Positions 3,717-20,291 of a stretch of 64,000 nt of DNA are shown here, piece after piece (position 1 is the stretch's first letter; the number at the start of each line of letters is the position of its first letter). Both the position numbers and the translations under genes were made by a program. Source of the stretch: an uncultured Flavobacteriales bacterium (lineage in GTDB: Bacteria > Bacteroidota > Bacteroidia > Flavobacteriales_G > Salibacteraceae); contig CAKZKD010000011.1 in the NCBI GenBank assembly GCA_937121175.1, positions 1 through 64,000 on the forward strand. The letters run 5' to 3'. The notes under the pieces were generated by a model. That model saw nothing but the letters and a program-made list of their open reading frames with translations, searched no databases and had not been told where the DNA came from.

Positions 3717-4601
3717 TTAGTATTCTTCAATCATTTTAGTGAACAATTGATTAAAGTGTTTTTGGCTAACCTCCGAAATGCCATGCATATTATTAGCATC
3801 GAAGGCTTGATTTCTACAATATTCCAAAAACTCAGTCTCCATTTCTGCTGCTTTTAACGCTTTGGCGTATTTAATAGAATAAATAATGTTATTGGGGAAT
3901 TCTTTGAGTAAAATCTTACAATATTTCATAGACTCCGAGGGGTCTTCTTCAGATTCTAGATAGATTTTTGCTAAAAAATAAGTCGATTCTGCTGAAACAG
4001 CCCAATTACTTTGTTGCGCCAATTCCTTTAAACTGTCTAACCCCTTTGTCATATTTCCATCTGGGTATCCCATTAAAATTGGTCGGAGCAAATAATAATT
4101 CTGGTAGGCAAAGTCGTGATAATAGTTATACAAAGCGTTTACTAATTTCAGTTCATCTGCCTTGTACTGTCGTTCGTTTAATTCTTCTAGCAAGAGAATA
4201 CATTTTCTCAAGTCTTTCAGTCCCGAGAAATAATTATCGTCTAACAATTGCACCCTAGACCTAAAAGTATATCCATTTAAGAGCCTCAGCAGAATTTCGT
4301 TACTTACCGAATCTGTTCGATAGGACTCGAGCTGATTAATATAGGTCTCGATAAGTTCATTTGAGGTTTCCAAGAAATCTTTTTGCTCACTATAACCCGA
4401 AATTAGTTTCCACCAATTTAGGTGAATCTGGCAAAGCTGTAAATCCTCTTTGGAAAAGGAACTCGCCTCTTGTTTAAGCACGTTTTCGCTTGAAATCAAA
4501 TCGAATGCATAAAGTGGTTGAAAAAAACGTTTTGTCACCAAGTTTTGCGATTGCAAATCGGTCAGTATAAATGTGATTATAATTGCTAGCAAAGCCCTCA
4601 T
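3717..4601 (-). CDS. Exported tetratricopeptide-like protein of unknown function
   Basis: I do not recognise a named family with certainty. The frame is open to an ATG at 4634, but the internal ATG at 4601 is preferred because it gives a clean signal peptide, MRALLAIIITFILTDLQSQ. The 294-residue product is otherwise helical, with TPR-like spacing: a segment around GLDSLKELAQ followed by AESTYFLAKIYLESEEDPSESMKY, then a segment on neighbouring-cell-size helices. This resembles the TPR39/Iml2-like secreted proteins of Bacteroidota, but that is inference. It is transcribed divergently from the LolA-like gene across a 54-base gap and may share regulation with that cluster. It is probably periplasmic. 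Confidence 0.6.
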   Translation of the reverse strand: MRALLAIIITFILTDLQSQNLVTKRFFQPLYAFDLISSENVLKQEASSFSKEDLQLCQIHLNWWKLISGYSEQKDFLETSNELIETYINQLESYRTDSVSNEILLRLLNGYTFRSRVQLLDDNYFSGLKDLRKCILLLEELNERQYKADELKLVNALYNYYHDFAYQNYYLLRPILMGYPDGNMTKGLDSLKELAQQSNWAVSAESTYFLAKIYLESEEDPSESMKYCKILLKEFPNNIIYSIKYAKALKAAEMETEFLEYCRNQAFDANNMHGISEVSQKHFNQLFTKMIEEY

Positions 4602-4640: not shown

Positions 4641-4648
4641 TACATTTG
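4641..4648 (+). promoter_or_regulatory. -7 box of the LolA-like/YidD cluster
   Basis: TACATTTG exactly matches TAnnTTTG and ends seven bases before the ATG at 4656. The spacing equals that at tolC and suggests a leaderless or nearly leaderless transcript. Confidence 0.5.
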
Positions 4649-4655
4649 ACGACCC

Positions 4656-5396
4656 ATGAAAAATTTAAATTTCACCCTAATTGGGCTAATCACTGGCCTA
4701 ACAGTAATTCTTGCCAATTCTGCATTTTATGTTCCGTTAAGAATCGATCAGATTCAACTGGATATGCTAATTCAAACTGTAAGTAAAGGAAAAAAAATAA
4801 CTACACGTGGCAAGCTTTATTACGAAACTGCTAATTCAAAGCTGGTAACAAGATTTACATACCCACATGAGATAATTTCTATTACCAATGGGTTAGGTGA
4901 AATGAAAACTTATGACGCAAAACAAAATAGTTTATTTCAAAAAAATGGAAGCCAGCATAGCTCCAAGCAATCATTTCTGTATCATTTTACAAGTGGCAGA
5001 TATGGTGATATGGGTTTGCAAGAAAATGGATTTGCCATGATAAAGAGTAGGATTGAAGATGGAATGGTAATTTCAAACTGGCAGGCTAAAAAGGATGCTG
5101 ATAAACAAAGTAAAAATCTAAACATTGAACTCGTGGTGGAAAACCGTTTACCCATTTTCATGAGTTATAGTAACAACGGTTCTATTGAATCGAAAACTTA
5201 CTTTACGAATTACCAAAATATTGGAGATAATTTGGTTCCGTTTAACATAACCGAGATACAATATTCTAATCAAGGTATGGATTCCGTTATCATACGAAAA
5301 AAGTATTCGAATTTATTGGTTAACAGTCAGGTTGATTTAAAATACTTAAACTTCAAGATACCTTCAACTGCCAAACTAATTGAGATTGATAAATGA
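4656..5396 (+). CDS. LolA-like outer-membrane lipoprotein carrier homolog
   Basis: LolA-type proteins carry lipoproteins or other hydrophobic cargo across the periplasm. This 246-residue protein has an N-terminal hydrophobic segment (about residues 8-25) that acts as signal peptide or anchor. It continues with the beta-rich pattern of the LolA fold: GKLYYETANSKLVTRFTYP near 52-70, then ISITNGLGEMKTYDAKQN, then strands around ISNWQAK and LPIFMSYSNNG. Identity to canonical LolA is weak and rests on strand pattern and the kind of motifs, so the fold is more certain than the cargo. Its stop overlaps the start of the YidD-like gene (ATGA), which ties the two in one transcript. Confidence 0.6.
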   Translation: MKNLNFTLIGLITGLTVILANSAFYVPLRIDQIQLDMLIQTVSKGKKITTRGKLYYETANSKLVTRFTYPHEIISITNGLGEMKTYDAKQNSLFQKNGSQHSSKQSFLYHFTSGRYGDMGLQENGFAMIKSRIEDGMVISNWQAKKDADKQSKNLNIELVVENRLPIFMSYSNNGSIESKTYFTNYQNIGDNLVPFNITEIQYSNQGMDSVIIRKKYSNLLVNSQVDLKYLNFKIPSTAKLIEIDK

Positions 5397-5854
5397 TTAG
5401 ACTAATTTTCATCTTAGCTGTTTTCCTCTGTTCATTTTCAAATCGTGGCATTAGTCAAGTTGAAAAAACGAATCTTGAAATTATACAAACAAAAAAACTT
5501 GCCAATGAACATAAGTACCAATCAAGAAAGGTTTCGTATCTCTTTAAAGAAAAATCATTTTTAGTAAAGTATAATCCGGTCTCTTTGGCCTTTGGTGGAT
5601 TATTGGCGTTCTATCAGAAGGTGATATCACAGCAACTTGCCTCTCATTGTCCTTACGAAATAAGTTGTTCCGAATTTAGCAAATTGTGTATTTCGGAGTA
5701 TGGATTAATAAAAGGTACAGCACTCACTGCTGATAGACTCACCCGATGTACTGAATTCACTCAAGTTGACATGCACCCGCTCTGGATGAACGAACACAAC
5801 CAAATTATTGACCCTATCCACAAGTACCAGCATCATAAAAAACACAAGCATTGA
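5393..5854 (+). CDS. YidD-like protein with an N-terminal signal peptide
   Basis: YidD is a small peripheral inner-membrane protein that aids YidC-dependent membrane-protein insertion. The YidD core is visible from about residue 62: FYQKVISQQL, then HCPYEISCSEF, then YGLIKGTALTADRLTRC. This keeps the family's three cysteines, the CSE/F turn and the helix ending in RC. Ordinary YidD is about 70-90 residues and begins near that core. This one is 153 residues, and its first 21 residues (LIFILAVFLCSFSNRGISQ) look like a cleavable signal peptide followed by a charged linker. That would place the domain in the periplasm, not the cytosol. It overlaps its neighbours by four bases on both sides (ATGA and TTGA). 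Confidence 0.8.
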   Translation: MIRLIFILAVFLCSFSNRGISQVEKTNLEIIQTKKLANEHKYQSRKVSYLFKEKSFLVKYNPVSLAFGGLLAFYQKVISQQLASHCPYEISCSEFSKLCISEYGLIKGTALTADRLTRCTEFTQVDMHPLWMNEHNQIIDPIHKYQHHKKHKH

Positions 5855-6786
5855 AATCATTATCCACAGTGTTTGTTGTTTTTACTTTATTACTGCATTG
5901 CTCAATATCCTTGCGCTCACAAAATGACGCCAACATTTCTACAAATGATTCGACGGCTGATTGTGACGTAACTAAAGAATTTCTTAGTGGAGAGTTAAAC
6001 TTTATAAAACACCTAATTACCAATGAGGAATTTGAGAATACCATTGAAACTCGGTTAAATTTAAAACTCAATTGTCCAACGTTTATTGACATAAAAGACA
6101 GTATTCATTATTTCTCCGGCTGGTCGGGATATCGACTGAAGAAATTAGATTTTGCGATATCGGAATTACTTCAAGTTTCTGAAACTTCTCCTTTCTATGT
6201 TAAATCTCAATTTTACTCCTCATTTTGCTACGCGTTTGACGGGGACAACAAAAACGCCATACAGACACTCGCTGAAATTCCAATTGAAATAAACAATTTG
6301 GAATTAATGAATATCAAGAATCTTCAACTTGCTGGCACTTATTTATTGGAACGGGACTATCAGAACTATTCGAAAAGTTTAAATCAATTGGATACGAACA
6401 ATTACCTTATCAAAAACGAGACAGAAAGATTAAAGTATCATAGGTCAAGCTTGCAGAAAATCAAAAATAAATCTCAGTTTTTAGCTGGTCTTTTTTCTGC
6501 GGTAATTCCTGGTAGTGGAAAATTTTATGCGGGATATAAAGGTCAGGCAATTGCTGCAGCCATACCGACAATACTATTTGGAGCGGTTGCCACAGAACAA
6601 TATTTTAAATCCGGACCAAAGAGCTTTCAGTTTATTTCTTTTGCGTCATTGTTTTCGATTTTTTATGTAGGAAATATTTGGGGAAGTGTAATTAGTGTAA
6701 GAACCTATAGAGATGACATTAATAATAAAATTGACAACGGTATTTTGGTTGACATGCATATTCCATTGCGTCGGTTTTTCGACTAG
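5851..6786 (+). CDS. Exported TPR-like protein with C-terminal PG-G-Y-G membrane domain
   Basis: Start is TTG at 5851, overlapping the YidD-like stop as TTGA; it opens directly with a signal peptide (LSTVFVVFTLLLHCSISLRSQ). The middle (about 40-200) is helical with TPR-like features (FAISELLQVSETSPFYVKSQ). The C-terminal part (about 205-290) carries VIPGSGKFYAGYKGQAIAAA followed by two or three hydrophobic stretches, resembling the DUF5683/TM2-like glycine-rich hairpin domain seen in small Bacteroidota membrane proteins. Specific function unknown. The next gene repeats the same architecture, so the two are probably an ancient tandem duplication that act as a pair. The last 74 bases also encode the signal peptide of that next gene in another frame. 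Confidence 0.65.
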   Translation: MKSLSTVFVVFTLLLHCSISLRSQNDANISTNDSTADCDVTKEFLSGELNFIKHLITNEEFENTIETRLNLKLNCPTFIDIKDSIHYFSGWSGYRLKKLDFAISELLQVSETSPFYVKSQFYSSFCYAFDGDNKNAIQTLAEIPIEINNLELMNIKNLQLAGTYLLERDYQNYSKSLNQLDTNNYLIKNETERLKYHRSSLQKIKNKSQFLAGLFSAVIPGSGKFYAGYKGQAIAAAIPTILFGAVATEQYFKSGPKSFQFISFASLFSIFYVGNIWGSVISVRTYRDDINNKIDNGILVDMHIPLRRFFD

Positions 6787-7591
6787 CAATGTTTCGGATT
6801 ATGAGCATGAAGCTAGAATAGCCGCGCAGGCAAATAAGTACAAAGACGCTGCATTATTGTATGAGCGTTGCGTATTTCTATCGACTGAAACGGAAAAGCA
6901 AGCAGAATTTCTGATTGAAAAAGCGAAATGCTATTGGGCAATAAATGATTTTGAACGTTCTTTATCAGCATTAAAAAGAATAACGACCTACAATCTTTCA
7001 GATTCCACACGGTTTGAGACCGAGTATTGTCTGGCAAGCAACCATTACATGCAGGGAAATTACCAAAATGCGCTGGCAGAACTTCAGCAAATACAAGCAT
7101 TTACCTCAGACATTAACCTCGTAGAGAAAACACACTTTCTTGCCGGACTCACTTTTATTCAACTAAAGGAATGGCAAAAGGCTAAGCTTCAATTTGTGAG
7201 TTGGGCAAACACCTTAGATGAAACCGACTCAATTAAAAGTGTGATTACGACCGAAATTACTTCTTTGTTAATGGAAGAAAATCTACCTAAATACAAAAAC
7301 CCAGAAACAGCTAAAATTTTAAGTATGTACCTGCCGGGTGCAGGCCAACTGTACTCTGGCTTTTTTTGGGAAGGAGCCGCTAGTCTTACTTTTCAACTTG
7401 CAGGTTTAGCTATATTAGGTTACGGAATTTATAGCCAGTACTATGTTACCGGCGGTGTTGTTGGGTTTGGAATCTTTCAACGGTTTTATTCTGGAGGTGT
7501 AAAAAGAGCTCAATTTCTGGCTGAAAAAAGAAACTTTAGAAACATCAAAACCCTTATTGAAAAAGCTGAAGAGGTTAAGCGTAAACATTGA
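6713..7591 (+). CDS. Paralogous TPR-like protein with C-terminal PG-G-Y-G membrane domain
   Basis: Same architecture as the preceding gene: signal peptide, TPR-like helices (ALLYERCVFL, then FERSLSALKRI, then YQNALAELQQI), then a C-terminal membrane hairpin domain with MYLPGAGQLYSGFFWEGAA and two hydrophobic stretches. The start lies inside the upstream gene; ATG 6713 or the in-frame TTG at 6731 both give a good signal peptide (LTTVFWLTCIFHCVGFSTS), and no start outside the overlap keeps it. This makes translational coupling likely. Product 292 residues. Function unknown; by context it may act with the LolA-like and YidD-like proteins in envelope assembly, which is inference only. Confidence 0.65.
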   Translation: MTLIIKLTTVFWLTCIFHCVGFSTSNVSDYEHEARIAAQANKYKDAALLYERCVFLSTETEKQAEFLIEKAKCYWAINDFERSLSALKRITTYNLSDSTRFETEYCLASNHYMQGNYQNALAELQQIQAFTSDINLVEKTHFLAGLTFIQLKEWQKAKLQFVSWANTLDETDSIKSVITTEITSLLMEENLPKYKNPETAKILSMYLPGAGQLYSGFFWEGAASLTFQLAGLAILGYGIYSQYYVTGGVVGFGIFQRFYSGGVKRAQFLAEKRNFRNIKTLIEKAEEVKRKH

Positions 7592-7649
7592 AATTTTAGT
7601 AATCGTATTGATTACATCATCCAAGAAGTGGGAAATCCAGTACTTTAAC

Positions 7650-8537
7650 TTATCCATTCAAAGCTTCAGCTCCACCAACAATTTCTAAGATTTCGGTAGT
7701 AATTGCTGTTTGACGTGCTTTGTTATATGTCAATTTTAAATCCCCTAATAAATCAGAAGCGTTATCTGTTGCTTTATGCATTGCGGTCATACGTGCGCCG
7801 TGCTCTGAAGCTAAAGAGTCTTTAAGTCCTTTGTAAAAAGCAGTTCTTAAAGCGTTTGGAATCAAAACTTCCAACAACTCTTCTTTTCCAGGTTGGAAAA
7901 TGTAGTCGTTGTTTTCAGATTCTGTTTCAGTCGCTTCTTCCGCCTTAATAGGAAGAAGGGTTTCAGTAGTTACAATTTGTGTAGCAGCGTTCTTAAACTG
8001 GTTGTAAATGATTCTTACCTCATCAAACTCCCCGTTTGCAAACGCATCCATTGCAGGTTGAAAAATATCCGCAGCTTTTTGATAATTCATATCATCAAAA
8101 ATGGCATACGCCTCTTCAAGATTCATGAATGCATCACTAGAACACAATCTACTATCTTTCTTATATGAATCTGAAGCTTTTTTACCTATTGGATAAATTG
8201 TGACCTCTTTTCCTGCTAATTCTCCAGCAGATAAACGCGCTACTTCTTTAATGATGTTGGCGTTAAAACCTCCACAAAGTCCTCTGTTCGAGTTAATTGG
8301 AATAACCAACACTTTGTTCGCTGGACGTTCTGTTGCGTATGGATTCTCCATTTCCAACATAGTCTCAGTAAGGTTGCCCATCATTTGCTTCACCTTTGCC
8401 GCATAAGGTCTCATTTGAGTAATACTATCCTGCGCTCTTTTCAGTTTTGCAGCAGAAACCATTTTCATGGCAGAGGTAATTTGCATGGTAGAATTTACCG
8501 ATGTAATCCTCGTTCGTATTTCTTTCAAATTTGCCAT
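7650..8537 (-). CDS. atpG: F1 ATP synthase gamma subunit
   Basis: The gamma subunit is the central rotor shaft of F1, turning inside the alpha3beta3 ring. The 295-residue product starts with the conserved ANLKEIRTRITSVNSTMQIT and reaches SAMKMVSAAKLKRAQ by residue 37. It ends with the classic C-terminal rotor helix, including ARMTAMHKATDNASDL and NKARQTAITTEILEIVGGAEAL. Length matches the 285-295 of the family. It is the last gene of the leftward atp operon and converges on the TPR-membrane gene across a 58-base gap that contains only a weak short hairpin. Confidence 0.97.
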   Translation of the reverse strand: MANLKEIRTRITSVNSTMQITSAMKMVSAAKLKRAQDSITQMRPYAAKVKQMMGNLTETMLEMENPYATERPANKVLVIPINSNRGLCGGFNANIIKEVARLSAGELAGKEVTIYPIGKKASDSYKKDSRLCSSDAFMNLEEAYAIFDDMNYQKAADIFQPAMDAFANGEFDEVRIIYNQFKNAATQIVTTETLLPIKAEEATETESENNDYIFQPGKEELLEVLIPNALRTAFYKGLKDSLASEHGARMTAMHKATDNASDLLGDLKLTYNKARQTAITTEILEIVGGAEALNG

Positions 8538-8558
8538 ATCGCCTAAATTAAAAGGTTA

Positions 8559-10142
8559 CTATTTTGTTTTGTATTTCAAAGAAAGGTCGTGACTCACGTC
8601 TTCAAGAACATCAGTAATTCCTTCGTGGATTTTACCCGACTTTAATTCCAATAAAACACTATGATGCTTTTCTTCCATAAAGTTTAAGAACTCTTCTTCA
8701 AATTCTTTGATTCGGTTCACCGGAATATTTCCTAACAATCCTTTACTTCCTAAGTAAATGATAGCCGTTTGCTTCTCAACAGACATTGGAGACCCTTCTC
8801 TTTGCTTAAGGATTTCAACGTTACGCTTTCCTTTTTCAAGAACACGAGTAGTAGCAGCATCAAGGTCAGAACCAAATTTAGAGAATGCCTCTAATTCACG
8901 ATACTGTGCTTGGTCTAACTTCAGTGTACCTGCAACTTTTTTCATTGCCTTTATTTGAGCGTTACCACCTACACGAGATACAGAAATACCTACGTTAATT
9001 GCTGGACGTACACCTGAAAGGAATAAATCTGATTCTAAGAAAATTTGACCGTCAGTAATCGAAATTACGTTGGTAGGAATATATGCAGAAACGTCACCTG
9101 CTTGTGTTTCAATAATTGGCAATGCCGTTAAAGAACCACCACCTTTTACCTTGTCTTTCAAAGAAGCTGGTAAATCGTTCATTTGAGCAGCAATCGTATC
9201 ATCATTAATAACTTTTGCAGCACGCTCTAATAATCTAGAGTGAAGGTAGAATACATCACCTGGGTAAGCCTCACGTCCTGGAGGTCTTCTAAGAAGAAGA
9301 GAAACCTCACGGTAAGCTACCGCTTGTTTTGATAAATCATCATATACAATCAAAGCTGGACGACCAGTATCTCTGAAATACTCACCTACAGCTGCTCCGG
9401 TAAATGGAGAGTAAAACTGCATTGGAGCAGGGTCAGAAGCATTAGCAGCAACTACAGTGGTATAAGCCATTGCGCCTGCGTCTTCTAATTTCTTTACGAT
9501 TAATGCAACCGTAGAAGCTTTTTGGCCAGAAGCAACGTAAATACAGTAAACTGGCTCACCAGCATCGTAAAATTCTTTTTGGTTAATGATAGCGTCAATC
9601 GCAACGGTAGTTTTACCTGTTTGACGGTCACCAATTATTAATTCACGTTGTCCTCTACCTACAGGAATCATAGCATCAACTGCTTTTATTCCCGTTTGCA
9701 TTGGCTCTGTTACTGGCTCGCGATAGATAACTCCTGGTGCCTTTCTTTCAATTGGCATTTCAAAAGTTTCGCCTTGAATTGGTCCTTTGCCGTCGATTGG
9801 GTTACCCAATGCGTCAATAACACGACCAACAATTCCTTCACCAACATTGATAGAAGCAATTAATCCAGTTCTTTTTACAGTAGCACCTTCTCTAATTCCA
9901 GTAGATTGTCCTAAAAGTACAGCTCCTACGTTATCCTCTTCAAGGTTAAGTACGATTCCTTTTAGTCCAGTTTGGAACTCGATAAGCTCACCAGCCTGTA
10001 CATTAGACAAACCATAAATACGAGCAATACCATCTCCAACTTGGAGTACAGTACCCACTTCTTCTAATTCAGCCTCTGTTCTAAATCCAGCTAACTCTTC
10101 TCGTAGTATTGCTGAAACTTCTGCAGGTTTTAAATCCGCCAT
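8559..10142 (-). CDS. atpA: F1 ATP synthase alpha subunit
   Basis: The alpha subunit forms the nucleotide-binding, non-catalytic half of the F1 hexamer. At 527 residues it is slightly longer than the usual 505-515. The Walker A motif GDRQTGKT lies near 170, [12 protein letters not shown] follows near 262-273, and the family signature [14 protein letters not shown] occurs near 370. The N-terminal barrel domain carries [10 protein letters not shown]. It lies 21 bases downstream of atpH and upstream of atpG. No frameshift or missing motif was seen. Confidence 0.98.
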
Positions 10143-10163
10143 GATGTATCAATTAACTTGGGA

Positions 10164-10724
10164 CTAGCCCAACTTGTTTTTATAATTCGTTTCTTGTAAT
10201 TCTATCTTCAATTCTTGCAATTGTCTTGCAACGGAAGCATCGATTTGAGAGTCACCGACTCTTAAAACAATACCACCGATTAATTCTGCATCAACTTCTT
10301 CTACCAACTCAATTGAGTTGTGGTCCATTGTTGCAATAATGCTTTTGATTTTTGCTCTTAGGCTATCGTCTAAAGCAGTTGCAGATTTCACATTCGCTAC
10401 AATTACCTTGTTGTGCATGTTATAAAGGTCAGTAAGACCAACCGCAATTTCTTCTAGAATATCCGCTCTGCTGTTTTCTGTAATGATTTTAACAAAACCT
10501 TTAACAAGGCCCGAAATGTCTTTACCAAAAATCAACTCAATTACGTTCAGCTTTTTGTAGGTTTTGATTACCGGACTTTTAAGCATTGCTCTTAAATCGC
10601 GATTATCGCCAACTACTTTCTGAATCAATTGCATATCAGCCAATGCTCTGTCTAGCTCGTTTCTTTCTTGAGCTAAAAGCATTAGTGACTTTGCGTATCT
10701 TCTGGCAACCTTGCTAGCAACCAT
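10164..10724 (-). CDS. atpH: F1 ATP synthase delta subunit
   Basis: Delta (OSCP-like) ties the peripheral stalk to the top of F1. The 186-residue product begins VASKVARRYAKSLMLLAQE, typical of the family's N-terminal helical bundle. It ends with the conserved C-terminal GGIVLRVGDSQIDASVARQL. Length is as expected. It begins two bases after the atpF stop, consistent with coupled translation in the order atpF-atpH-atpA. Confidence 0.95.
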   Translation of the reverse strand: MVASKVARRYAKSLMLLAQERNELDRALADMQLIQKVVGDNRDLRAMLKSPVIKTYKKLNVIELIFGKDISGLVKGFVKIITENSRADILEEIAVGLTDLYNMHNKVIVANVKSATALDDSLRAKIKSIIATMDHNSIELVEEVDAELIGGIVLRVGDSQIDASVARQLQELKIELQETNYKNKLG

Positions 10725-10726
10725 AA

Positions 10727-11227
10727 TTAGTTCAATTTAATATCAGCAACTAATTCGTTTGCCAAAGACTTCTGTTTATCGTCACTTGACAATTCTTTAC
10801 GAATAATTTTTTCAGCGATTGAAATTGAAAGGCTTGCCATTTCAGTTTTCATTTCTGCAATTGCGCTTGCTTTTTCAGCTTCGATAGCAGCGTGAGCAGC
10901 TTGAACAATCTTGTCCGCTTCTTCTTTCGCTTCACCTTTTGCTTCGCCAACAATCTTGTCTTTCAATTCTCTTGCTTCTTTCAGTAAAGCGTCTCTTTCG
11001 ATTTTCGCTTCAGCAATTAAATTTTCGTTTTTAGACTGTAACTCAGCTAATTCTTTTTTTGCATTTTCAGCAGAATCTAATGATTCACGAATGGTGTTTT
11101 CTCTTTCTGAAACTGAATCCAAAATTGGCTTCCAAGCATACTTTTTAAGTATGAATAAAAGGATTAAGAATAAAATAGTTTGCCAAAAGAAAAGGCCTAC
11201 TGAAAACTGTTCGATTAATTTTTCCAA
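10727..11227 (-). CDS. atpF: F0 ATP synthase subunit b
   Basis: Subunit b is the peripheral stalk. It has one N-terminal membrane helix (FFWQTILFLILLFILKKYAW, about 13-32) followed by a long charged, heptad-rich helix with the family-typical segment SVSERENTIRESLDSAENAK, ending in SISIAEKIIRKEL. The 166-residue length is typical of single-b enzymes. No b-prime gene is present, so a homodimer is expected. Confidence 0.96.
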   Translation of the reverse strand: MEKLIEQFSVGLFFWQTILFLILLFILKKYAWKPILDSVSERENTIRESLDSAENAKKELAELQSKNENLIAEAKIERDALLKEARELKDKIVGEAKGEAKEEADKIVQAAHAAIEAEKASAIAEMKTEMASLSISIAEKIIRKELSSDDKQKSLANELVADIKLN

Positions 11228-11298
11228 AACAAATTGTTTTTTAAAATGAATTTAAAAACAACACCTCCAGCCAACCGCTGGAAGTGTTGAATACTAAA

Positions 11299-11490
11299 TT
11301 AAACTGCAAATAATGCAGCGAATCCGATACCTTCGATAAGTGCCGCAGCAATCAACATCGCAGTTTGGATTTTGTTAGTAGCTTCTGGTTGACGAGCGAT
11401 AGCTTCCATCGCTGACCCACCAATTCTACCAATACCAATACCTGCTCCGATAACAACTAATCCTGCACCTACAATAGCTGGAATTTCCAT
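11299..11490 (-). CDS. atpE: F0 ATP synthase subunit c
   Basis: The ring-forming proteolipid: two membrane helices in 63 residues. The first helix has the glycine ladder GAGIGIGRIGG, followed by the loop ARQPEA. The second helix has the ion-carrying glutamate in ALIEGIGF. The residue after this Glu is Gly, and the Gln of sodium-binding rings is absent from helix 1, so proton coupling is the likelier reading. It is shorter than most c subunits (70-80 residues) because the N-terminus is trimmed, as is usual in this phylum. Confidence 0.96.
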   Translation of the reverse strand: MEIPAIVGAGLVVIGAGIGIGRIGGSAMEAIARQPEATNKIQTAMLIAAALIEGIGFAALFAV

Positions 11491-11523
11491 AACAATTCTA
11501 ATTTAAATTAACAATAATCTTTA

Positions 11524-12639
11524 TTAATGATGTTCATGCTCTGCGACTGCACTACCGAAGTAAAGTGCGGTTAACATAGTAAATATATATGCCTGCAAAG
11601 CAGCAACAAGTAATTCTAACAATGACAATGAAACAGCTAGCGCAAATGAAAGCGAACTTCCTATCCAGCTGTGGAAAATGAACATTAAACCAATTAAACT
11701 CATAAGTACTACGTGACCCGCAGTAATGTTTGCGTACAAACGAATAAGCAATGCAAACGGCTTAATGAATATTCCTAATAATTCGATTGGGGCTAATAAT
11801 ATTTTCATTGGTACTGGCACGCCTGGCATCCAGAAAATGTGCTTCCAATATTCCGCTTTACCCGATACTTGAGTAATTATGAATGTCATAATTGCTAAAG
11901 CAAATGTTACCGAAATACTGTTGGTTACATTAATTCCGAGCGGTGTAAGGCCGAACAAGTTTACGAACCATATAAAGAAGAATACAGTAAGTAAGTAACT
12001 CATGAATTTTTTGTAGTGCTTTTCGCCAATATTTGGGATCGCAATTTCATCTCTTACAAAAATCACTAGCGGCTCTAAGAACCTTGCTGTTCCAGTAGGA
12101 ACCAAACTCTTCTTGTAAGATTTGGCCGCCCCCATAAACAAAAGCACTAACAAAAATGAAAGCACCATAATACTGAACACGTTCTTTGTGATAGAAAAGT
12201 CTAAAGGCTTTTCATTGTGAACGTGACCGTCGTGCATTGGCATAAAACCCGACTCGTCAGTTTTGTAAATTTTACCGTGATATAATGTGTAATAATTACC
12301 ATTACTTTCTGCTACCGATTCACCGTGGTGAAATTTAGAGGAGGAAAAAATTTGAAGACCGTTATCGATGAGAATAACTGGCAATGGAAAACCGTAATGC
12401 GTATTAGTTTCAGTATCTGTAAACAAATGAAATCCATACGAATCTTGCAAGTGATGCGAGATATGCGCTTTGATTTCCTCTTTCATAGTCATCGCTTCAT
12501 GACCTTCAGAATGAGAATGCTCAATTGGTGTGTTTTGGATTGAATCGGCGGCATGTTCTGCATGCCCTGAAGCGTTTAGGAGTACTGGTTGGCTTAAAAC
12601 TAAAACAGCTAGAAAAAATAAGGCTCTTGTGAACTGCAT
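11524..12639 (-). CDS. atpB: F0 ATP synthase subunit a with long His-rich N-terminal extension
   Basis: Subunit a forms the proton half-channels beside the c ring. The frame opens at 12720, but ATG 12639 is chosen: it gives a signal peptide (FTRALFFLAVLVLSQPVLLNA) and sits sensibly below the promoter at 12674-12681. The 371-residue product has a histidine- and acid-rich exported region (about 25-150) before the membrane domain. The essential arginine is in PFALLIRLYANITAGH, and the last helices read LELLVAALQAYIFTML. The extension is known for Bacteroidota AtpB, but its role is not. It is the first large gene of the operon and has its own promoter. Confidence 0.95.
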   Translation of the reverse strand: MQFTRALFFLAVLVLSQPVLLNASGHAEHAADSIQNTPIEHSHSEGHEAMTMKEEIKAHISHHLQDSYGFHLFTDTETNTHYGFPLPVILIDNGLQIFSSSKFHHGESVAESNGNYYTLYHGKIYKTDESGFMPMHDGHVHNEKPLDFSITKNVFSIMVLSFLLVLLFMGAAKSYKKSLVPTGTARFLEPLVIFVRDEIAIPNIGEKHYKKFMSYLLTVFFFIWFVNLFGLTPLGINVTNSISVTFALAIMTFIITQVSGKAEYWKHIFWMPGVPVPMKILLAPIELLGIFIKPFALLIRLYANITAGHVVLMSLIGLMFIFHSWIGSSLSFALAVSLSLLELLVAALQAYIFTMLTALYFGSAVAEHEHH

Positions 12640-12673
12640 AATTACCTGTCTGATGACGTTTCTAAATTTTGTG

Positions 12674-12702
12674 CAAAAGTAGTTGATTTTTTTAGTCAAC
12701 AA
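12674..12702 (-). promoter_or_regulatory. Promoter of atpB-E-F-H-A-G
   Basis: The minus strand carries TTG (12700-12702), an 18-base spacer, then TACTTTTG (12674-12681), an exact -7 box. The spacer contains a 5-bp inverted repeat (GTTGA / TCAAC, 12682-12700), a possible operator. The expected leader is about 30 bases. Confidence 0.6.
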
Positions 12703-12750
12703 TGCACTTCTGCATTGCATTTTTTTTTGCTCTTAATTTTTTTTGAAAAT

Positions 12751-13128
12751 TTATTCCGAAAGATTGTTAATCAGGCACTTAGCCTCCATGGTGAGCGCAA
12801 CCGCATAGGGGGTGAAAAATGCGAAAAACTCTGGTCGCTCGATAGTACCATTTGCCTTGAAATTAGAGTAAAACACTAAAAAGAAAAAACCGAACTTCAA
12901 AAAGCTACCTAAAAGGAATAAAAACCCCAAACTGTTTTGGTATTTGGGTGGCGCCTTAAGCAAGGCAATTACTATAACTATTGCGAGAATAATATTTCCA
13001 ACATAGGCAACAATAATTTGATTGTCGAATAAGGGTAGATTTAGGAATTGTAGGACTGTTACATGAACAATGAATCCCAGAGCACATACTAGGATAATCT
13101 GGGAATTGAATTTAATGAGTTGACCCAT
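12751..13128 (-). CDS. Small four-helix membrane protein, DUF6168-like, ATP synthase-associated
   Basis: The frame extends to 13182, but ATG 13128 is preferred, because the longer form overlaps atpZ by 53 bases. From 13128 the 125-residue product opens GQLIKFNSQIILVCALGF and has four hydrophobic segments, near 9-29, 38-58, 65-85 and 96-114. Its position between atpZ and atpB, with a one-base gap to atpZ, matches the small membrane protein (AtpI/DUF6168-like) often found there in Flavobacteriia. By position it could help c-ring assembly as AtpI does elsewhere; that role is inference. Confidence 0.6.
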   Translation of the reverse strand: MGQLIKFNSQIILVCALGFIVHVTVLQFLNLPLFDNQIIVAYVGNIILAIVIVIALLKAPPKYQNSLGFLFLLGSFLKFGFFFLVFYSNFKANGTIERPEFFAFFTPYAVALTMEAKCLINNLSE

Positions 13129-13129
13129 T

Positions 13130-13363
13130 CTAATTGTTCCATTTATTGAGCGCGCGAATTGTATAGGCCATAGACAAACCAACCGAAAGCAAAATTAAAC
13201 CGAGTGTAAACCAGTTTTTGTCCAATTGGTATTTGTCGTCTAGTAAACTGCCGAGGTAGGCTCCTAACCCGATAATAACCACCGTTTGTAGCCCCAGCCC
13301 AGAATAGTTGATAAACGAGGGCTTGTTTTTTTCGTTGTCTTTATTGTCTTCTTTATTATCCAT
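13130..13363 (-). CDS. AtpZ/AtpI-family ATP synthase accessory protein
   Basis: A 77-residue protein with a charged, Lys/Asp/Asn-rich N-terminus (about 1-14). Two membrane helices follow: LGLQTVVIIGLGAYLGSLLD (about 23-42) and FTLGLILLSVGLSMAYTIRAL (about 52-72). The glycine-rich first helix and the LDDKYQ turn are typical of the AtpZ/AtpI family, which assists c-ring assembly or cation supply to F0. It heads the atp gene set and has a -7 box just upstream. Confidence 0.8.
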   Translation of the reverse strand: MDNKEDNKDNEKNKPSFINYSGLGLQTVVIIGLGAYLGSLLDDKYQLDKNWFTLGLILLSVGLSMAYTIRALNKWNN

Positions 13364-13373
13364 AGGTTAGCCG

Positions 13374-13381
13374 CAAAACTA
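13374..13381 (-). promoter_or_regulatory. -7 box of atpZ
   Basis: The minus strand reads TAGTTTTG, an exact TAnnTTTG, ten bases before the atpZ start. It is divergent from the tatA promoter box at 13393-13400. Confidence 0.5.
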
Positions 13382-13392
13382 GGTATATTTAC

Positions 13393-13400
13393 TACCTTTG
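13393..13400 (+). promoter_or_regulatory. -7 box of tatA
   Basis: TACCTTTG exactly matches TAnnTTTG. It lies 33 bases before the preferred tatA start and back to back with the atpZ box. The longer frame start at 13398 would fall inside this box, which supports the internal ATG at 13434. Confidence 0.5.
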
Positions 13401-13433
13401 ACGCTTCATTATTCACAGTATAAAACGTCTAAT

Positions 13434-13598
13434 ATGGCAATTGGTCCTTGGCAAATCGTACTCATAGTAGTTGTAGTTCTTCTTTTATTTGGAGGGAAAA
13501 AGATTCCTGAATTAATGAAGGGGCTAGGTAGCGGAATGAAAGAATTTAAAAATGCGTCTAAGGAAGACGATAGCGATAAAAAAGAAACGGATAAGTAA
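13434..13598 (+). CDS. tatA: Sec-independent translocase TatA/E-type subunit
   Basis: TatA oligomers form the pore of the twin-arginine pathway that exports folded proteins. The frame opens at 13398, but ATG 13434 gives the canonical start [20 protein letters not shown] and lies downstream of the promoter box. The 54-residue product has the membrane helix (about 4-19), the hinge [16 protein letters not shown], then an amphipathic helix and a short acidic/basic tail (EDDSDKKE). It is smaller than E. coli TatA (89 residues) but normal for Bacteroidota. tatC is not in the window. Confidence 0.92.
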
Positions 13599-13623
13599 AT
13601 TACTTATCAAATTCAGATAACTG

Positions 13624-13652
13624 AGGGCAGTTCGATAATCTCGAAATGCCCT
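13624..13652 (+). terminator. Terminator after tatA
   Basis: A hairpin AGGGCA-G-TTCGA / TCGAA-A-TGCCCT with a five-base loop and a single G.A mismatch is followed by TTTT (to 13655). It separates tatA from gatA and abuts the gatA promoter box. Confidence 0.6.
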
Positions 13653-13654
13653 TT

Positions 13655-13662
13655 TATATTTG
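13655..13662 (+). promoter_or_regulatory. -7 box of gatA
   Basis: TATATTTG exactly matches TAnnTTTG and ends six bases before the ATG at 13669. The alternative TTG start at 13660 lies within the box and is therefore unlikely. The leader would be only about three bases. Confidence 0.5.
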
Positions 13663-13668
13663 GTACAA

Positions 13669-15075
13669 ATGGAATTCCCTAAATCACTTTCAGCAGTTCA
13701 ATCTAGTATAAAAAATGGTGAATACACTCTTCTCCAATTGGTAGAAGCGTATTTGACTGAAGCCGAAAAAACTGCTGACCTCAACATATTTCTTGAAGTT
13801 TGGAAAGAAGAAGCATTGGAAAAGGCTGCTGTAATTCAACAAAAAATAGATAGTGGTTCTGCTGGTAAATTAGCAGGAATGGTAATCGGATTGAAGGATA
13901 ACATTTGCTACAAAGGGCATAAAGTTTCTGCTTCGAGTAAAATTTTAGAAGGTTTTGAATCGGTTTATTCGTCAACAGTAGTTAAGCGGTTGCTGGCTGA
14001 TGACGCCATTTTTATCGGCCGATTAAACTGCGACGAATTTGCCATGGGTTCTTCAAACGAGAACTCAGCTTATGGTCCGGTAAAAAACCCACTTGACCCC
14101 AATCGAGTTCCAGGTGGAAGTTCTGGTGGTTCTGCAGCTTCGGTTGCAGCAAATACTTGTTTAGTTGCTCTGGGTTCTGATACCGGAGGAAGTATTCGTC
14201 AACCAGCCTCTTTTTGTGGGGTTTTCGGCATCAAGCCCACTTATGGAACCATTTCCAGACACGGATTAATTGCCTACGCTTCGTCATTAGACCAAATTGG
14301 TCCTTTTGCACATTCGGTGGAAGACTTGTCGGCAGTAATTGAGGTTATGGCTGGCCCAGACGAATTTGATAGTACACTGAGTACAAATCAACTAAACCTA
14401 AAAGCCGATACTAAAAAACATAGAATTGCTTATTTGCAAGAATGTTTTGACGCTGAAGGGCTCGACCCAGAGGTAAAAAAAGCACACTTGGATAAAATTG
14501 AAGAATTAAAGGCAGCTGGCCATACAGTAGAAGCTGTTTCGTTTCCTTATTTAGACCAATTGGTACCTTGCTATAATGTACTTACCAATGCTGAGGCTTC
14601 GAGTAACTTAGCTCGTTTTGACGGAATGCGTTATGGTTACCGTTCAGAAAATGCGGTGGATTTAGAAACTACTTACACCAAGTCGCGCTCGGAAGGTTTT
14701 GGCCCAGAGGTGAAGCGTAGAATTATGCTAGGAACTTTTGTTTTGAGTGCCGGATATTATGATGCGTACTACTCAAAAGCTCAAAAAGTTCGTCGATTGA
14801 TTCAAGACAAAACTTTTGAAATTTTTCAGGATTACGATTTTATTCTCACTCCCACTACACCGCATACAGCTTTCGAACTAGGAGCGCATGGGGACGATAT
14901 GGTGGCGATGTATTTAGAAGATATTTTTACGGTTCAAGCGCCGTTAGCAGGTGTTCCCGCAATGTCGATTCCACTTTTTACGCATAGCAACGGCATGCCT
15001 TTCGGCTTGCAATTAATTGCGAATAAGTTTGAAGAAGGGAAGATGTTGCAGTTTGCTGAGGAGTTGGCTGGTTAG
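13669..15075 (+). CDS. gatA: Glu-tRNA(Gln)/Asp-tRNA(Asn) amidotransferase subunit A
   Basis: GatA hydrolyses glutamine to supply ammonia for converting misacylated Glu-tRNA(Gln) to Gln-tRNA(Gln) in the GatCAB complex. ATG 13669 is chosen over the TTG at 13660, giving 468 residues. The amidase-signature triad is visible: Lys in GLKDNICYKG (near 75), the cis-Ser in PGGSSGGSAASVAA and the nucleophile in GSDTGGSIRQPASFCG. The C-terminal PLAGVPAMSIP is also typical. Length is a little below the usual 475-490. It stands alone, between a terminator and a REP-like element. Confidence 0.95.
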   Translation: MEFPKSLSAVQSSIKNGEYTLLQLVEAYLTEAEKTADLNIFLEVWKEEALEKAAVIQQKIDSGSAGKLAGMVIGLKDNICYKGHKVSASSKILEGFESVYSSTVVKRLLADDAIFIGRLNCDEFAMGSSNENSAYGPVKNPLDPNRVPGGSSGGSAASVAANTCLVALGSDTGGSIRQPASFCGVFGIKPTYGTISRHGLIAYASSLDQIGPFAHSVEDLSAVIEVMAGPDEFDSTLSTNQLNLKADTKKHRIAYLQECFDAEGLDPEVKKAHLDKIEELKAAGHTVEAVSFPYLDQLVPCYNVLTNAEASSNLARFDGMRYGYRSENAVDLETTYTKSRSEGFGPEVKRRIMLGTFVLSAGYYDAYYSKAQKVRRLIQDKTFEIFQDYDFILTPTTPHTAFELGAHGDDMVAMYLEDIFTVQAPLAGVPAMSIPLFTHSNGMPFGLQLIANKFEEGKMLQFAEELAG

Positions 15076-15091
15076 CCTAATTTCTAAACGA

Positions 15092-15205
15092 CGTCATTCC
15101 TGCGAAGGCGGGAATCTGTAGTAAGCTGTTTTAATAGATTCCGCACAGAAGTTTCGCAATACTTTTCTTTCAGAAAACCAACTCAACTAATCTTACGGAA
15201 TGACG
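15092..15205. repeat. REP/MITE-like imperfect palindrome
   Basis: Ends are exact inverted copies CGTCATTCC (15092-15100) and GGAATGACG (15197-15205). Inside the left end is TGCGAAGGCGGGAATCT, the form of a dispersed palindromic repeat found between genes in many bacteria; GATTCCGCA near 15138 is a further inner match. The element fills most of the 177-base gap between convergent gatA and the receptor gene, a usual site for such repeats. Whether other copies exist cannot be seen from this window. Confidence 0.55.
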
Positions 15206-15252
15206 AACTTGGATTGGAAAATTGACTAATCGCTTAATTATCAAATTAATAT

Positions 15253-17688
15253 CTATCTTCCACCGTCCTCACCACCAAAGCCTCCTCGCTGAGGTCGCTT
15301 CTTTTGGTTTAATCGATAAGAGAAGGTAAGTATTCCATACCTAGACATCCACTGAAATTCAGTTTCATCATAAAAATCTGGTCCATTGGTAATGTTGATT
15401 CTTTTTCGTGTGTTCAATAAATCTCGAACCGAAAGCGTAATGGTTCCATTTCCTTTAAGTACATCTACCGAACCAGCTAAGTCAATATTATATCGCGGTA
15501 ACTGTTCTCCTTGAGTTGTTTTTTCTTTCGACCGGTAATTAATAGAGGATTGAAAAGAGACCTTATCCCAAATCTTCCACTTACTGACTACTCGAGTCGA
15601 CCAGGCGTATGTGTCTGCAGAAAACTGCTGTCCTTGATATTCCCCATCGGTAATAGCTCTAAAGAAATTGAAACTTCCATTTACGTTCCACCATTTTTTA
15701 ATCTCTTTGCTTCCCGAAATTTCAAGTCCGAAGGAATTTCTGATACCTAAGTTTATAGGAAATCGGTAATTGATTCCAGCCGAGTCGGCTTGTAAAATTC
15801 GTTCTATAGTACCTGTGGAATATCGGTAGTAAGGACTAACCAAAAGATTAGCTTTTTCCCAGCGTTTCATGTAACCCACCTCAAATGCATCGGTGAAAAC
15901 AGGATTCAAATTGGGGTTACCTGTTGAAATATTTCGGTTATCACTCAGGTTATAAAACGGGTATAAAAACCAGTGCATCGGTCTAGAGATTCTTTTTGAA
16001 TAACTGGATTGTACAAATTGATTTTTCTTGAATTCATAGGATAGATTGACACTCGGAAAAAGGTTGAGGTAGTCCCTTTGATTGCGTTCATTGGTGCGCT
16101 TAAATTCGGTGACAATATCGGTGTATTCCACTCTCAACCCCAATTGATAGGAGAAGTTTTTGGTTTTATTTCCGGCCATTGCGTAGGCTGCGTACACATC
16201 TTCGGTGTAGGACATTTCATTATTAAAAATTGGGTCAGGCACAAAGACAGCTCCGTCAAATTCAGATATATCGAAGTTGTTGTCAATTGCGCGCAGGTTT
16301 CCTTTCACGCCAAACTCACCCTTACCATCCTCTAAAAATGGAAATACAAAATCGGACTGCATTGTTAGGTTACTTCCTTGCTCTTCGGTAATTGCTTTTT
16401 GAATTACATCTGTTGTAGTGGGATTGGTACTTACTTCGGTAAGGTCTGCGTCTTCGTAGCTGTAATTAGCGAACCCCGAAACATCCACCGTCCACTTCAT
16501 TTCTTTTTTCTTGAAGGTTCGTGTATAGTTGAATTGGCCACGACTCCGGTTGTTTTTCTGTTCCTCAATTTCATCGCGATTTACAATTTGGCTAATCTCA
16601 TTATTGATTCCAAAGTCTTCATAAACTAGCTGAGCATCGTTGGTTCCTGCTCCGTTGCTGTAATTTCCAGAAATGGTAATGGAGTTGTATTTGTTGAATT
16701 GATAGCCGAAACCAAGTCTAATGTTCTGGTTAAATCCATTTCGGCTATGGTTTCTTTCAGAACGATAACCAAAGGTGGTATCGGGTCTATAAAATTCATG
16801 GTACGTTGTTCCTTGTCCCGGTCGTTCGCGATAATTAAGGCCATAGCCAGTAAAGAAATTCAATTTCTTTTTTCGATAGTTCAAGGTGTAACTTATTCCT
16901 CCATTAAGCGGGTAGCCGGCTCTTGCTTCGAATACTCCATTGAGCCCTTTTTTCTTTTCTTTTTTGAGCACAATATTTATAATGCCTACTTCGCCCTCAG
17001 CATCGTATCGAGCGGATGGATTGGTGATAATTTCAACTTTCTCCACATTATCTCCTTGAATAAGTCGTAATGCTTCGCCATTACTCATTCCCATGAGTGC
17101 CGCAGGTTTCCCGTCGATTAGAATGCGAACATTTTGGCTGTTTCTAAGGCTTACATTCCCCTCTACATCAACGTCAACAGAAGGAATGTTCTCCAAAATG
17201 TTAGATACCGTTTGGCCGCGGTTTGAAAGGTCTTTATCTACATTAAATACTCGTTTGTCCAATTTGAGTTCCATTTGTGGACGTTCTGCCTCAATTGTGA
17301 CAGCCTCTAACGAGGTACTAGAGGGGTTGAGTGTTATTTTTTTTAGGTTGATATCGGCATTTGTCACATTTAGGTCGGGTATCAATTTAGTCTCGAAAGA
17401 AATGAAACTAATTTGTACGTAATATGCACCAGACTTAACCTTCACTTCAAAGAACCCATCTACATCAGAAGCAAGTCCAGACGACAGCGTAGAATCTTTG
17501 GCATTGTAAACAGCGATTGAAGCATAGGGAATGGGGTTTTTGTCTTCATCGATGAGTTTACCTAGAATGGAGAATGTTAGAGCACCTTTTTTGCCTTGCG
17601 GTCGGCCGCCTTGAGCAAAGATGTTTGCCGTAAACAGGATAAAGACTAGATATAAAAAATAATGTCGCAAACCTTTTGGTCCTTTCAA
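15253..17688 (-). CDS. Outer-membrane beta-barrel receptor (TonB-dependent type, CarboxypepD_reg-like N-domain)
   Basis: An 811-residue outer-membrane protein. Layout: signal peptide (about 8-25, ending IFAQ); a carboxypeptidase-regulatory-like beta-sandwich at about 40-115 (GKLIDEDKNPIPYASIAVYN); a plug domain at about 130-240 with NVRILIDGKPAALMG and ITNPSARYDAEGEVGIINI; then an OMP_b-brl_3-type barrel. The tail is Arg/Gly rich (QRGGFGGEDGGR). The start is TTG at 17688 (an in-frame TTG at 17670 also keeps the signal peptide); no ATG precedes the signal peptide. A TonB box is not evident, and no SusD partner is present, so the ligand is unknown and may be a peptide or metal complex. Confidence 0.85.
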   Translation of the reverse strand: MKGPKGLRHYFLYLVFILFTANIFAQGGRPQGKKGALTFSILGKLIDEDKNPIPYASIAVYNAKDSTLSSGLASDVDGFFEVKVKSGAYYVQISFISFETKLIPDLNVTNADINLKKITLNPSSTSLEAVTIEAERPQMELKLDKRVFNVDKDLSNRGQTVSNILENIPSVDVDVEGNVSLRNSQNVRILIDGKPAALMGMSNGEALRLIQGDNVEKVEIITNPSARYDAEGEVGIINIVLKKEKKKGLNGVFEARAGYPLNGGISYTLNYRKKKLNFFTGYGLNYRERPGQGTTYHEFYRPDTTFGYRSERNHSRNGFNQNIRLGFGYQFNKYNSITISGNYSNGAGTNDAQLVYEDFGINNEISQIVNRDEIEEQKNNRSRGQFNYTRTFKKKEMKWTVDVSGFANYSYEDADLTEVSTNPTTTDVIQKAITEEQGSNLTMQSDFVFPFLEDGKGEFGVKGNLRAIDNNFDISEFDGAVFVPDPIFNNEMSYTEDVYAAYAMAGNKTKNFSYQLGLRVEYTDIVTEFKRTNERNQRDYLNLFPSVNLSYEFKKNQFVQSSYSKRISRPMHWFLYPFYNLSDNRNISTGNPNLNPVFTDAFEVGYMKRWEKANLLVSPYYRYSTGTIERILQADSAGINYRFPINLGIRNSFGLEISGSKEIKKWWNVNGSFNFFRAITDGEYQGQQFSADTYAWSTRVVSKWKIWDKVSFQSSINYRSKEKTTQGEQLPRYNIDLAGSVDVLKGNGTITLSVRDLLNTRKRINITNGPDFYDETEFQWMSRYGILTFSYRLNQKKRPQRGGFGGEDGGR

Positions 17689-17838
17689 AGCGCGAAAGTC
17701 GGGGTATTTTTTCGATTAAGGATTAAAGATGGGTTGGATTAACGTATTTTGAGGATGGATGGTGAAAAGCACTGTGGACTTCTTCAGAAAGTGCCGGTTT
17801 CCAGTACATTTACGTCGAAATAAAACATCTTATGACCG

Positions 17839-18549
17839 ATGGTGGAAAATGAAAAACCTCGACTTTCAAGATTAACCGCAATTATTACTCAGTTGCAGTC
17901 TAAAAGACTGATTACTGCTAAGTATCTGGCCGAAAAACATAGTGTTAGCATTCGCACTATCTATAGAGATATTCGAACCCTAGAAAGGTCTGGTATTCCA
18001 ATATTAACTGAGGAAGGGAAAGGTTACTCGTTAATGGAAGGTTATCGATTGCCTCCTGTTTTTTTTACTGAAGAGGAAGCAAATGCATTGATAACGGCAG
18101 AGCAAATTATTCTGAAAAATAAAGACTTATCGTTTAGCGAAACCTACACCAATGTTGTAACTAAAATCAAATCGGTGCTAAAACAAACTCAAAAAGGAAA
18201 AACAGATTTACTAGCCGGCCGAATTCACTTTAGGGAAAATGACACCTTCAATCAGTCGAGTAATTATTTAATGGAAATTCAATTGGCTATTACGAACTTT
18301 CAATTACTCAACATGGAATACAAATCGCTAGAACATAATACCACAATAAGAGATATTGAACCTTTCGCTGTATACAACACTAACGGAAACTGGCTATTAA
18401 TCGCTTTTTGTCTTCTAAGACAAGAATTTCGCGCATTTCGAATTGATTTAATTCAAAAATTAACTCCCCTAGACAGAGTGTTCGACCCACATAATATGAC
18501 GTTGGAACAGTATTTTGAAATCTGCAAAGAAAAAACACAACACCCCTGA
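17839..18549 (+). CDS. HTH/WYL-domain transcriptional regulator (YafY/DeoR-like)
   Basis: The N-terminal winged helix (about 8-62) includes RLITAKYLAEKHSVSIRTIYRDIRTLERSGIPI, a standard HTH_11 layout. Next comes the linker TEEEANALITAEQIIL, then a WYL-type effector domain (about 130-215) with the segment NTNGNWLLIAFCLLRQEFRAFRIDLIQ in place of the strict WYL triplet. At 236 residues it is on the short side, without the C-terminal extension of many WYL proteins. It lies 62 bases upstream of the GyrI-like gene and reads the same way, so it may control that pair; the WYL domain suggests a nucleic-acid or small-molecule signal. Confidence 0.85.
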   Translation: MVENEKPRLSRLTAIITQLQSKRLITAKYLAEKHSVSIRTIYRDIRTLERSGIPILTEEGKGYSLMEGYRLPPVFFTEEEANALITAEQIILKNKDLSFSETYTNVVTKIKSVLKQTQKGKTDLLAGRIHFRENDTFNQSSNYLMEIQLAITNFQLLNMEYKSLEHNTTIRDIEPFAVYNTNGNWLLIAFCLLRQEFRAFRIDLIQKLTPLDRVFDPHNMTLEQYFEICKEKTQHP

Positions 18550-18611
18550 CATACCTCTGTCACTACACCGCTTTACTATTGCCTCAAATTAATAATTGAA
18601 AAAGCAATAAA

Positions 18612-19070: not shown

Positions 19071-19076
19071 TTCAAC

Positions 19077-19418
19077 ATGAATCCAATAGACAGCTTTTAT
19101 CTTGACCAAAAAGAACCGGTAAAAAGCTGTCTATTGGCTTTAAAAACCGTCATTACAAACTATAATTCGGAGCTTGTGCCCAGGTGGTATTATCGACTGC
19201 CGTGTTTTATGCTTAACAAGCATATTTTTTGTTATTTATGGATTGATAAAAAAACTCAATTCCCATACATCGCAATTGGTAATGGGGTAAAAATTGAACA
19301 TCCTGACCTAATTCAAGGGAAAAGAACTTTTACCAAACTCCTAATGATTGACCCGAATGAAGATATTCCGAAAGAAAAGATTCATGAAATCTTTGATTTA
19401 GTTTCAGCAACATACTGA
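19077..19418 (+). CDS. DUF1801 domain protein (YdhG-like)
   Basis: The 113-residue product matches the DUF1801 pattern of small single-domain proteins: an N-terminal helix (QKEPVKSCLLALKTVITN), then strand-rich PRWYYRLPCFMLNKHIFCYLWI, and the basic IQGKRTFTKLLMI segment near the end. The gap from the GyrI-like gene is six bases, so the two are co-transcribed. DUF1801 proteins have no agreed function. The family call is good and the role unknown. Confidence 0.7.
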   Translation: MNPIDSFYLDQKEPVKSCLLALKTVITNYNSELVPRWYYRLPCFMLNKHIFCYLWIDKKTQFPYIAIGNGVKIEHPDLIQGKRTFTKLLMIDPNEDIPKEKIHEIFDLVSATY

Positions 19419-19862: not shown

Positions 19863-19886
19863 TTCAATTTCATTGAGCGTAAATTA

Positions 19887-20291
19887 CTACCACACTACAA
19901 ATTCATCAGCGCTGTAATCACCAACTTCAGTTCCACCAAATAATACAGAAGCGAAATCTACTTGCGCCACTATACCACCTGTACAGAAATAAAACCCACA
20001 ATACTTAAGTCCGTCAACTCCAGCATAGTATCTGTGAATACCAAATTGTCCGCAAAAGAAAGCCGCAATTAAGAAAACTGCTTTTGAGTCACCACCAGCT
20101 TTCACACTTGTTGCATTAAGACTACTAAGTCCCATTTCGTCTAAAGACTCAAAAGATGAAATTGTTACATCTTCTGCATTTTCAATTGTAGTTTCGATTG
20201 CCTTTTCATCAATCTTGTAATTTCCAGCCGATACATTCATCGCAAACGCTCCGAATACCAGCATGGCCAAGCACACTTTTAACTTCTTCAT
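19887..20291 (-). CDS. Exported TM2-domain protein
   Basis: A 134-residue protein with a clear signal peptide (LKVCLAMLVFGAFAMNVSAG, about 4-23) and a low-complexity linker rich in Glu, Ser and Thr (about 25-65). A TM2-type hairpin follows (about 70-115): AVFLIAAFFCGQFGIHRYYAG with the GIHRYYAG turn, then a second hydrophobic stretch around YFCTGGIVAQVDF. TM2 domains normally have two membrane helices joined by a DxF/HRFY-like turn; here the second helix is weak and contains cysteines. Function unknown. It has its own promoter box over the metH stop and a strong terminator, so it is a single-gene transcript. Confidence 0.65.
   Translation of the reverse strand: MKKLKVCLAMLVFGAFAMNVSAGNYKIDEKAIETTIENAEDVTISSFESLDEMGLSSLNATSVKAGGDSKAVFLIAAFFCGQFGIHRYYAGVDGLKYCGFYFCTGGIVAQVDFASVLFGGTEVGDYSADEFVVW

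Follow-up and report, generated by a model that had tools for sequence, protein, structure and literature searches.

We describe a conserved gene cassette, A-B-C-D, in which an exported member of the YidD family is encoded together with a protein of predicted LolA/LolB fold and two TPR-hairpin paralogs, and which is strongly associated with genes for small exported hairpin proteins (gene F and its counterparts). The cassette was recognized in a stretch of 64,000 nucleotides from an uncultured Flavobacteriales bacterium of the Salibacteraceae (GenBank assembly GCA_937121175.1, contig CAKZKD010000011.1, positions 1 to 64,000), hereafter the window; its features are collected in Table 1. Its components are of known kinds, and no description of the exported YidD module with its linked hairpin proteins was found in the literature that could be searched (subscription papers being mostly outside reach), nor one of an exported YidD with TPR, LolA or T9SS proteins. 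As a tentative working model, to which we give somewhat less than even confidence, we propose that A-B-C-D acts at the periplasmic face of the envelope as a machine dedicated to small Sec-exported hairpin proteins (F and its counterparts), which it would receive and then insert or sort.

Table 1. Position, strand and supporting evidence of the cassette genes, their parts and associated features in the window.
Feature	Position	Strand	Evidence
Gene E, divergent exported protein without family	3717..4601	-	ATG at 4601; longest frame starts at TTG 4634
TACATTTG (TAnnTTTG) box, possible -7 element	4641..4648	+	7 nt upstream of A start codon
Gene A, exported protein of predicted LolA/LolB fold, 246 aa, without lipobox cysteine	4656..5396	+	AlphaFold2, Foldseek, VIA
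Gene B, 153 aa, the genome's second YidD, with a signal peptide of cleavable type	5393..5854	+	PF01809, TIGR00278
B, putative signal peptide, about residues 1-21 (...GIS/Q cleavage)	5393..5455	+	Hydropathy and cleavage pattern conserved in orthologs
B, YidD domain, residues 69-127; Cys86, Cys92 and Cys119 invariant	5597..5773	+	Profile match, alignment
Gene C, begins at TTG; signal peptide, then TPR-like helices and a pair of membrane helices forming the C-terminal hairpin	5851..6786	+	AlphaFold2, alignment
C/D frame overlap, 74 nt, coding for C tail and D signal peptide	6713..6786	+	Both proteins conserved there
Gene D, paralog of C, TPR and C-terminal hairpin, weak DUF5683	6713..7591	+	TPR_2, DUF5683, hhalign
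Gene F, TM2-type hairpin protein, small and exported, with FVVW at its C-terminus	19887..20291	-	TM2 E 8.7e-4, family alignment, linkage

Conservation and layout of the cassette

The initial annotation of this DNA had described four nested frames overlapping by 4, 4 and 74 bases, and both the coordinates and the A/B, B/C and C/D overlaps were confirmed from the open reading frames of the window, all four lying on the forward strand. The start of D inside C is credible because the long overlap is kept at 65-74 nt in all six genomes in which it was measured. The gene order recurs both within the order and at loci elsewhere in the phylum: the main cassette is present, with the same arrangement, in 15 of 42 genomes of the order, including two (G026 and G023) in which it is broken off at a contig end. 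Since order and identity recur across the order, the four-gene set does not represent a chance grouping. A diverged second cassette accompanies the main one in G018 and G011, the diverged type occurs alone in G028, and B-C-D lies near a contig end in G032. Outside the order, a sample of 395 genomes of the phylum yielded A-B-C-D in three genomes (G231 of family f13; G154 and G177 of f28); many genomes of f20, f38 and f49 have B-C-D but no A. B-C-D is accordingly the conserved core in several families of the phylum, joined by A in some. Four of the loci with B-C-D only (L096:9228-10571, L099, L101 and L105) continue with LemA-like and TPM-like genes, as judged by eye, and the LemA-like protein of L096 matches MamQ below the cut-off.

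All 20 C-type loci fetched from outside the order carry an exported B beside C/D (known in L095 from a match) or, in L103, fused to it. This is the sole fusion among the candidates fetched, B and C/D being separate frames in L110; in G150, a single protein of 400 aa comprises a signal peptide, PF01809 at residues 35-87 and the C/D (TPR-hairpin) profile at 134-377. Other potential YidD-hairpin fusions, among the 380-394 aa matches to the C model, were rejected as DUF5683/TM2-like proteins devoid of YidD. Given the natural fusion and the conserved gene order, a functional link between B and C/D is very likely.

The set had also been placed behind a TAnnTTTG box. The box, TACATTTG, is present immediately before A; beyond the window it is common to the sister species only. 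A conserved promoter was therefore ruled out, and the promoter role is weakly backed, the string being a common one and its conservation ending at the sister species. TAnnTTTG is depleted in the window (42 occurrences observed versus 84 expected from shuffles). The copies at 4641 and 13655 end no more than 7 nt from the start of an annotated frame, which a leaderless transcript, or one with a very short leader, would require.

An exported YidD

YidD proteins are nearly universal yet poorly understood; the cytosolic form is thought to aid hairpin insertion together with YidC, by a canonical mechanism that is itself poorly understood. By sequence, gene B is a true member of the family, matching PF01809 (E 2.2e-15; 56.6 bits against a cut-off of 27) and TIGR00278 (E 4.3e-17; 61.7 bits against a cut-off of 40). 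It is not the only YidD of its genome, for a canonical copy resides on another contig (G000:C3:171998-172189), and a second, longer YidD is frequent among the 42 genomes of the order. In every complete exported B examined, the YidD domain follows a signal-peptide-like start, as the initial annotation had claimed for the window, consisting of a hydrophobic stretch and an Ala/Ser-Gln-type end; here, as in the other exported proteins, signal peptides were called from hydropathy and alignment pattern, and the trimmed B sequence of L105 was left out of the assessment. Because mature B contains no membrane-spanning stretch behind this start, the protein is likely located in the periplasm. The same cleavage pattern and the membrane-segment-free mature part disfavour the possibility of an uncleaved cytosolic anchor.

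The exported and canonical forms also differ in architecture. Canonical copies in the order mostly begin 12-25 residues ahead of the YQ motif, the few exceptions having over-long called starts, and the cysteine motif of the exported B proteins of the order is found at about residues 74-90. A GGxGxDPVP/GYDPVP tail is present in all 30 canonical copies and absent from exported B.

A predicted LolA/LolB fold and two hairpin paralogs

The window protein encoded by gene A matches no family, and one of its orthologs matches PF17131 (LolA_like) only below the cut-off (E 1.3e-3; 18.8 bits against a cut-off of 30). The designation of A as LolA-like in the initial annotation, merely suggestive at this level, was nevertheless borne out by the predicted structure. 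With the AlphaFold2 model (pLDDT 89.3; alignment of 15 sequences) as the query, the top 36 Foldseek rows are all LolA/LolB-superfamily or DUF1329 structures, with an E-value of 1.8e-11 to LolA, and VIA-align gives Z-scores of 15.8 to the LolB and 14.8 to the LolA3 of Porphyromonas gingivalis. The model thus supports a LolA/LolB fold for A. The lipobox cysteine is absent from the A orthologs, so that A would resemble LolA rather than LolB in its export.

The fold by itself does not establish the function of A, and it bears on the alternative that survives best, itself improbable, namely, that the cassette is a Lol-like lipid or lipoprotein route, in which A would carry acyl chains over the periplasm, B, C and D would form a loading dock at the inner membrane, and F would be a passenger or adaptor. 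Both the fold and the lipobox-free signal peptide of A fit such a route, and Lol-fold proteins dedicated to a single locus have a precedent in the LolA2/LolB2 pair of Flavobacterium johnsoniae, whose genes belong to the flexirubin operon and which is believed to be devoted to it (PMC11885536). However, A is missing from many B-C-D loci, the aligned F proteins have no lipobox cysteine, no LolCDE-like or LolB gene adjoins the cassette in the loci examined, and lipoproteins with PEGA domains adjoin B in few loci only (L103 and L109).

Profile comparison identifies C and D as paralogs (hhalign probability 99.3%), each ending in a PGxGx(F/L)Y(A/S)G hairpin, in agreement with the N-terminal helical repeat and C-terminal glycine hairpin previously ascribed to both. 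The AlphaFold2 model of C (pLDDT 89.9) has a helical repeat and, after it, two long helices at the C-terminus (residues 230-254 and 259-310); its TPR matches in the PDB are generic and weak (E about 0.09), one of them being to a PpiD-YfgM structure. In D, TPR_2 is matched with an E-value of 8.7e-8 and DUF5683, under the cut-off, with 4.2e-4. None of the cassette proteins belongs to a T9SS family of NCBIfam, the generic TPR similarity to PorE/PorW falling far under the cut-offs.

Small hairpin proteins linked to the cassette

The initial account of the gene set overlooked the linked F family, along with the canonical YidD, gene E, the duplicated cassettes, the fusion and the absence of A from many lineages. 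PF05154 (TM2) scores 19.9 bits on the F protein of the window, against a cut-off of 27.9, and 39.7 bits, above the cut-off, on the ortholog in L044. The family combines a conserved N-terminal NYKLNDxxIExAF segment, a TM2-type hairpin with an invariant HR and a C-terminal FxxW (Phe-x-x-Trp); there is no profile match that would make it a homolog of the C/D hairpin.

The genetic association between small exported hairpin proteins and the cassette is strong. Full-length F is encoded in all 15 genomes of the order with the main cassette and in none of the other 27 (Fisher p 2.8e-10, calculated before G023 was resolved and uncorrected for the relatedness of the genomes); G023, which had appeared to carry F without a cassette, was rejected as such when C and D were found at its contig end. 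F genes sit beside D, often also past the divergent gene E, and of the 31 strong F genes, 29 are no more than 2.2 kb away from the cassette, the other two being a second copy in G011 and the copy in the window. Here, the ATP synthase operon and other genes (7592-19886) separate D from F, whereas in the sister species (L048) F directly follows D and is itself followed by metH, so that a rearrangement has separated the two in the window. At full length, F is not a phylum-wide TM2 family: among the 395 genomes, it is encoded in only two, G000 and G231, the same two that possess a strong A of this type.

The diverged second-type cassettes (L035:5375-8577, L036:5031-8153 and L037:5709-8797) are accompanied by a different family of small exported two-helix proteins (WGC/WGF type), and a phylogeny of the concatenated B, C and D sequences places them in a clade of their own, outside the TM2-linked cassettes, with modest support (62). 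The small neighbours in f28 (L092 and L095) were rejected as homologs of these second-copy proteins, HMMs failing to detect a relationship that is apparent by eye only. When TM2-type F was compared by hhalign with a profile of the second-copy and f28 small proteins, the probability was 95.9% over 124 columns, a value obtained for a single pair and inclusive of the signal peptide.

From the linkage we infer an interaction of F with A-D, F being likely a partner or client of the cassette. It could instead be a structural subunit, such that A-B-C-D-F would make up a single fixed complex of the envelope (sensor, channel or scaffold) without client transfer. This reading, which comes second among the alternatives and is likewise unlikely, would account for the tight match between the presence of F and that of the cassette and for the similar hairpins of C, D and F. 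Nonetheless, F is present in one to four copies per cassette while A-D are single, and F gene fragments occur in G019, a pattern that more closely resembles client turnover and thus suggests clients rather than fixed subunits.

Neighbouring genes

Homologs of gene E, which has no Pfam or NCBIfam match, adjoin the main cassette in most of the relatives, namely, in L034, L035, L040-L043 and L045-L048 (E 1e-25 to 1e-115). In G013 and G014, the end of gldN overlaps the start of A by 13 nt (L044:6816-6828 and L049:903-915), so that in this genus the gldKLMN operon seems to continue into the cassette, which in G011 likewise follows gldLMN. SprA, the T9SS outer-membrane translocon (TIGR04189, 2342 bits), is encoded on the reverse strand of the window at 39215-46795, 32 kb away. 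These neighbours would be consistent with an accessory or assembly role in the type IX secretion or gliding machine, a doubtful explanation that we place third: the cassette is patchily distributed (15 of 42 genomes), adjoins gld genes in two genera only and also occurs in families with no gld gene nearby. It is highly improbable that F proteins are small membrane-active effectors, directed against neighbours or used for envelope remodelling, that A-D export or restrain, for, although short exported hairpins with paralog expansion and fragments near one machine could be so interpreted, no immunity-like or secretion gene was seen at the loci, both ends of F are strongly conserved, and no toxin family was matched in profile searches.

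A working model of the cassette

We return to the dedicated machine proposed at the outset. Because the signal peptides are presumed to be cleaved, C and D would be anchored in the inner membrane and expose their TPR domains to the periplasm, where the latter may recognize the N-terminal NYKLNDxxIExAF segment of F, its C-terminal FxxW, or both. B would bind the membrane through an amphipathic helix and promote insertion of the hairpin, in the manner envisaged for cytosolic YidD and YidC, and A might shield the hydrophobic hairpin or ferry it elsewhere, possibly to the outer membrane. Against this machine stand the many B-C-D loci of f20, f38 and f49 that lack A and beside which no small hairpin gene was seen. 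Of the envelope lipid or protein insertion system with a periplasmic YidD that had been suggested earlier, the conserved order, exported YidD, LolA fold and paralogous partners hold, and the insertion role is one that we infer.

A broader conjecture, to which we attach still less weight than to the type IX explanation, is that YidD-type insertion aid also operates outside the cytosol, the module and its LolA-fold carrier moving alpha-helical hairpins through the periplasm into a target membrane, possibly the outer one, separately from YidC, Lol and BAM. An exported YidD that is clustered or fused with TPR-hairpin proteins and paired with small hairpins constitutes a compact, genetically separable system, in which the role of the YidD domain, and the possibility of aiding insertion from the periplasmic side, can be examined, with F proteins as candidate clients for direct testing.

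Comparison with known systems

YidD is described as a membrane protein insertion efficiency factor of Escherichia coli (Yu et al., 2011, as cited in PMC8082313). B shares with canonical YidD (TIGR00278/PF01809) the domain, the three invariant cysteines, the YQ...ISP amphipathic start and RLxRC, but has a signal peptide, lacks the GGxGYDPVP tail and is encoded with TPR-hairpin proteins rather than being cytosolic. A shares its predicted fold with the LolA/LolB proteins of Bacteroidota (F. johnsoniae LolA1-3 and LolB1-2 and P. gingivalis LolA, LolA3 and LolB) and its lipobox-free export with LolA, but is only 9-10% identical to the best structures and has different neighbour genes. The PpiD-YfgM complex at SecYEG, in which a membrane-anchored periplasmic TPR domain receives exported proteins (PMC8082313), offers a possible functional analogy for C/D; these, however, combine a signal peptide with a C-terminal hairpin as membrane anchor and have no PPIase, and the TPR similarity is generic. 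Finally, C, D and F share with TM2/DUF5683 proteins a two-helix membrane hairpin of the PGxGxxYxG or TM2 type, from which C and D are set apart by scores under the Pfam cut-offs and F by its conserved N-terminal segment and C-terminal FxxW.
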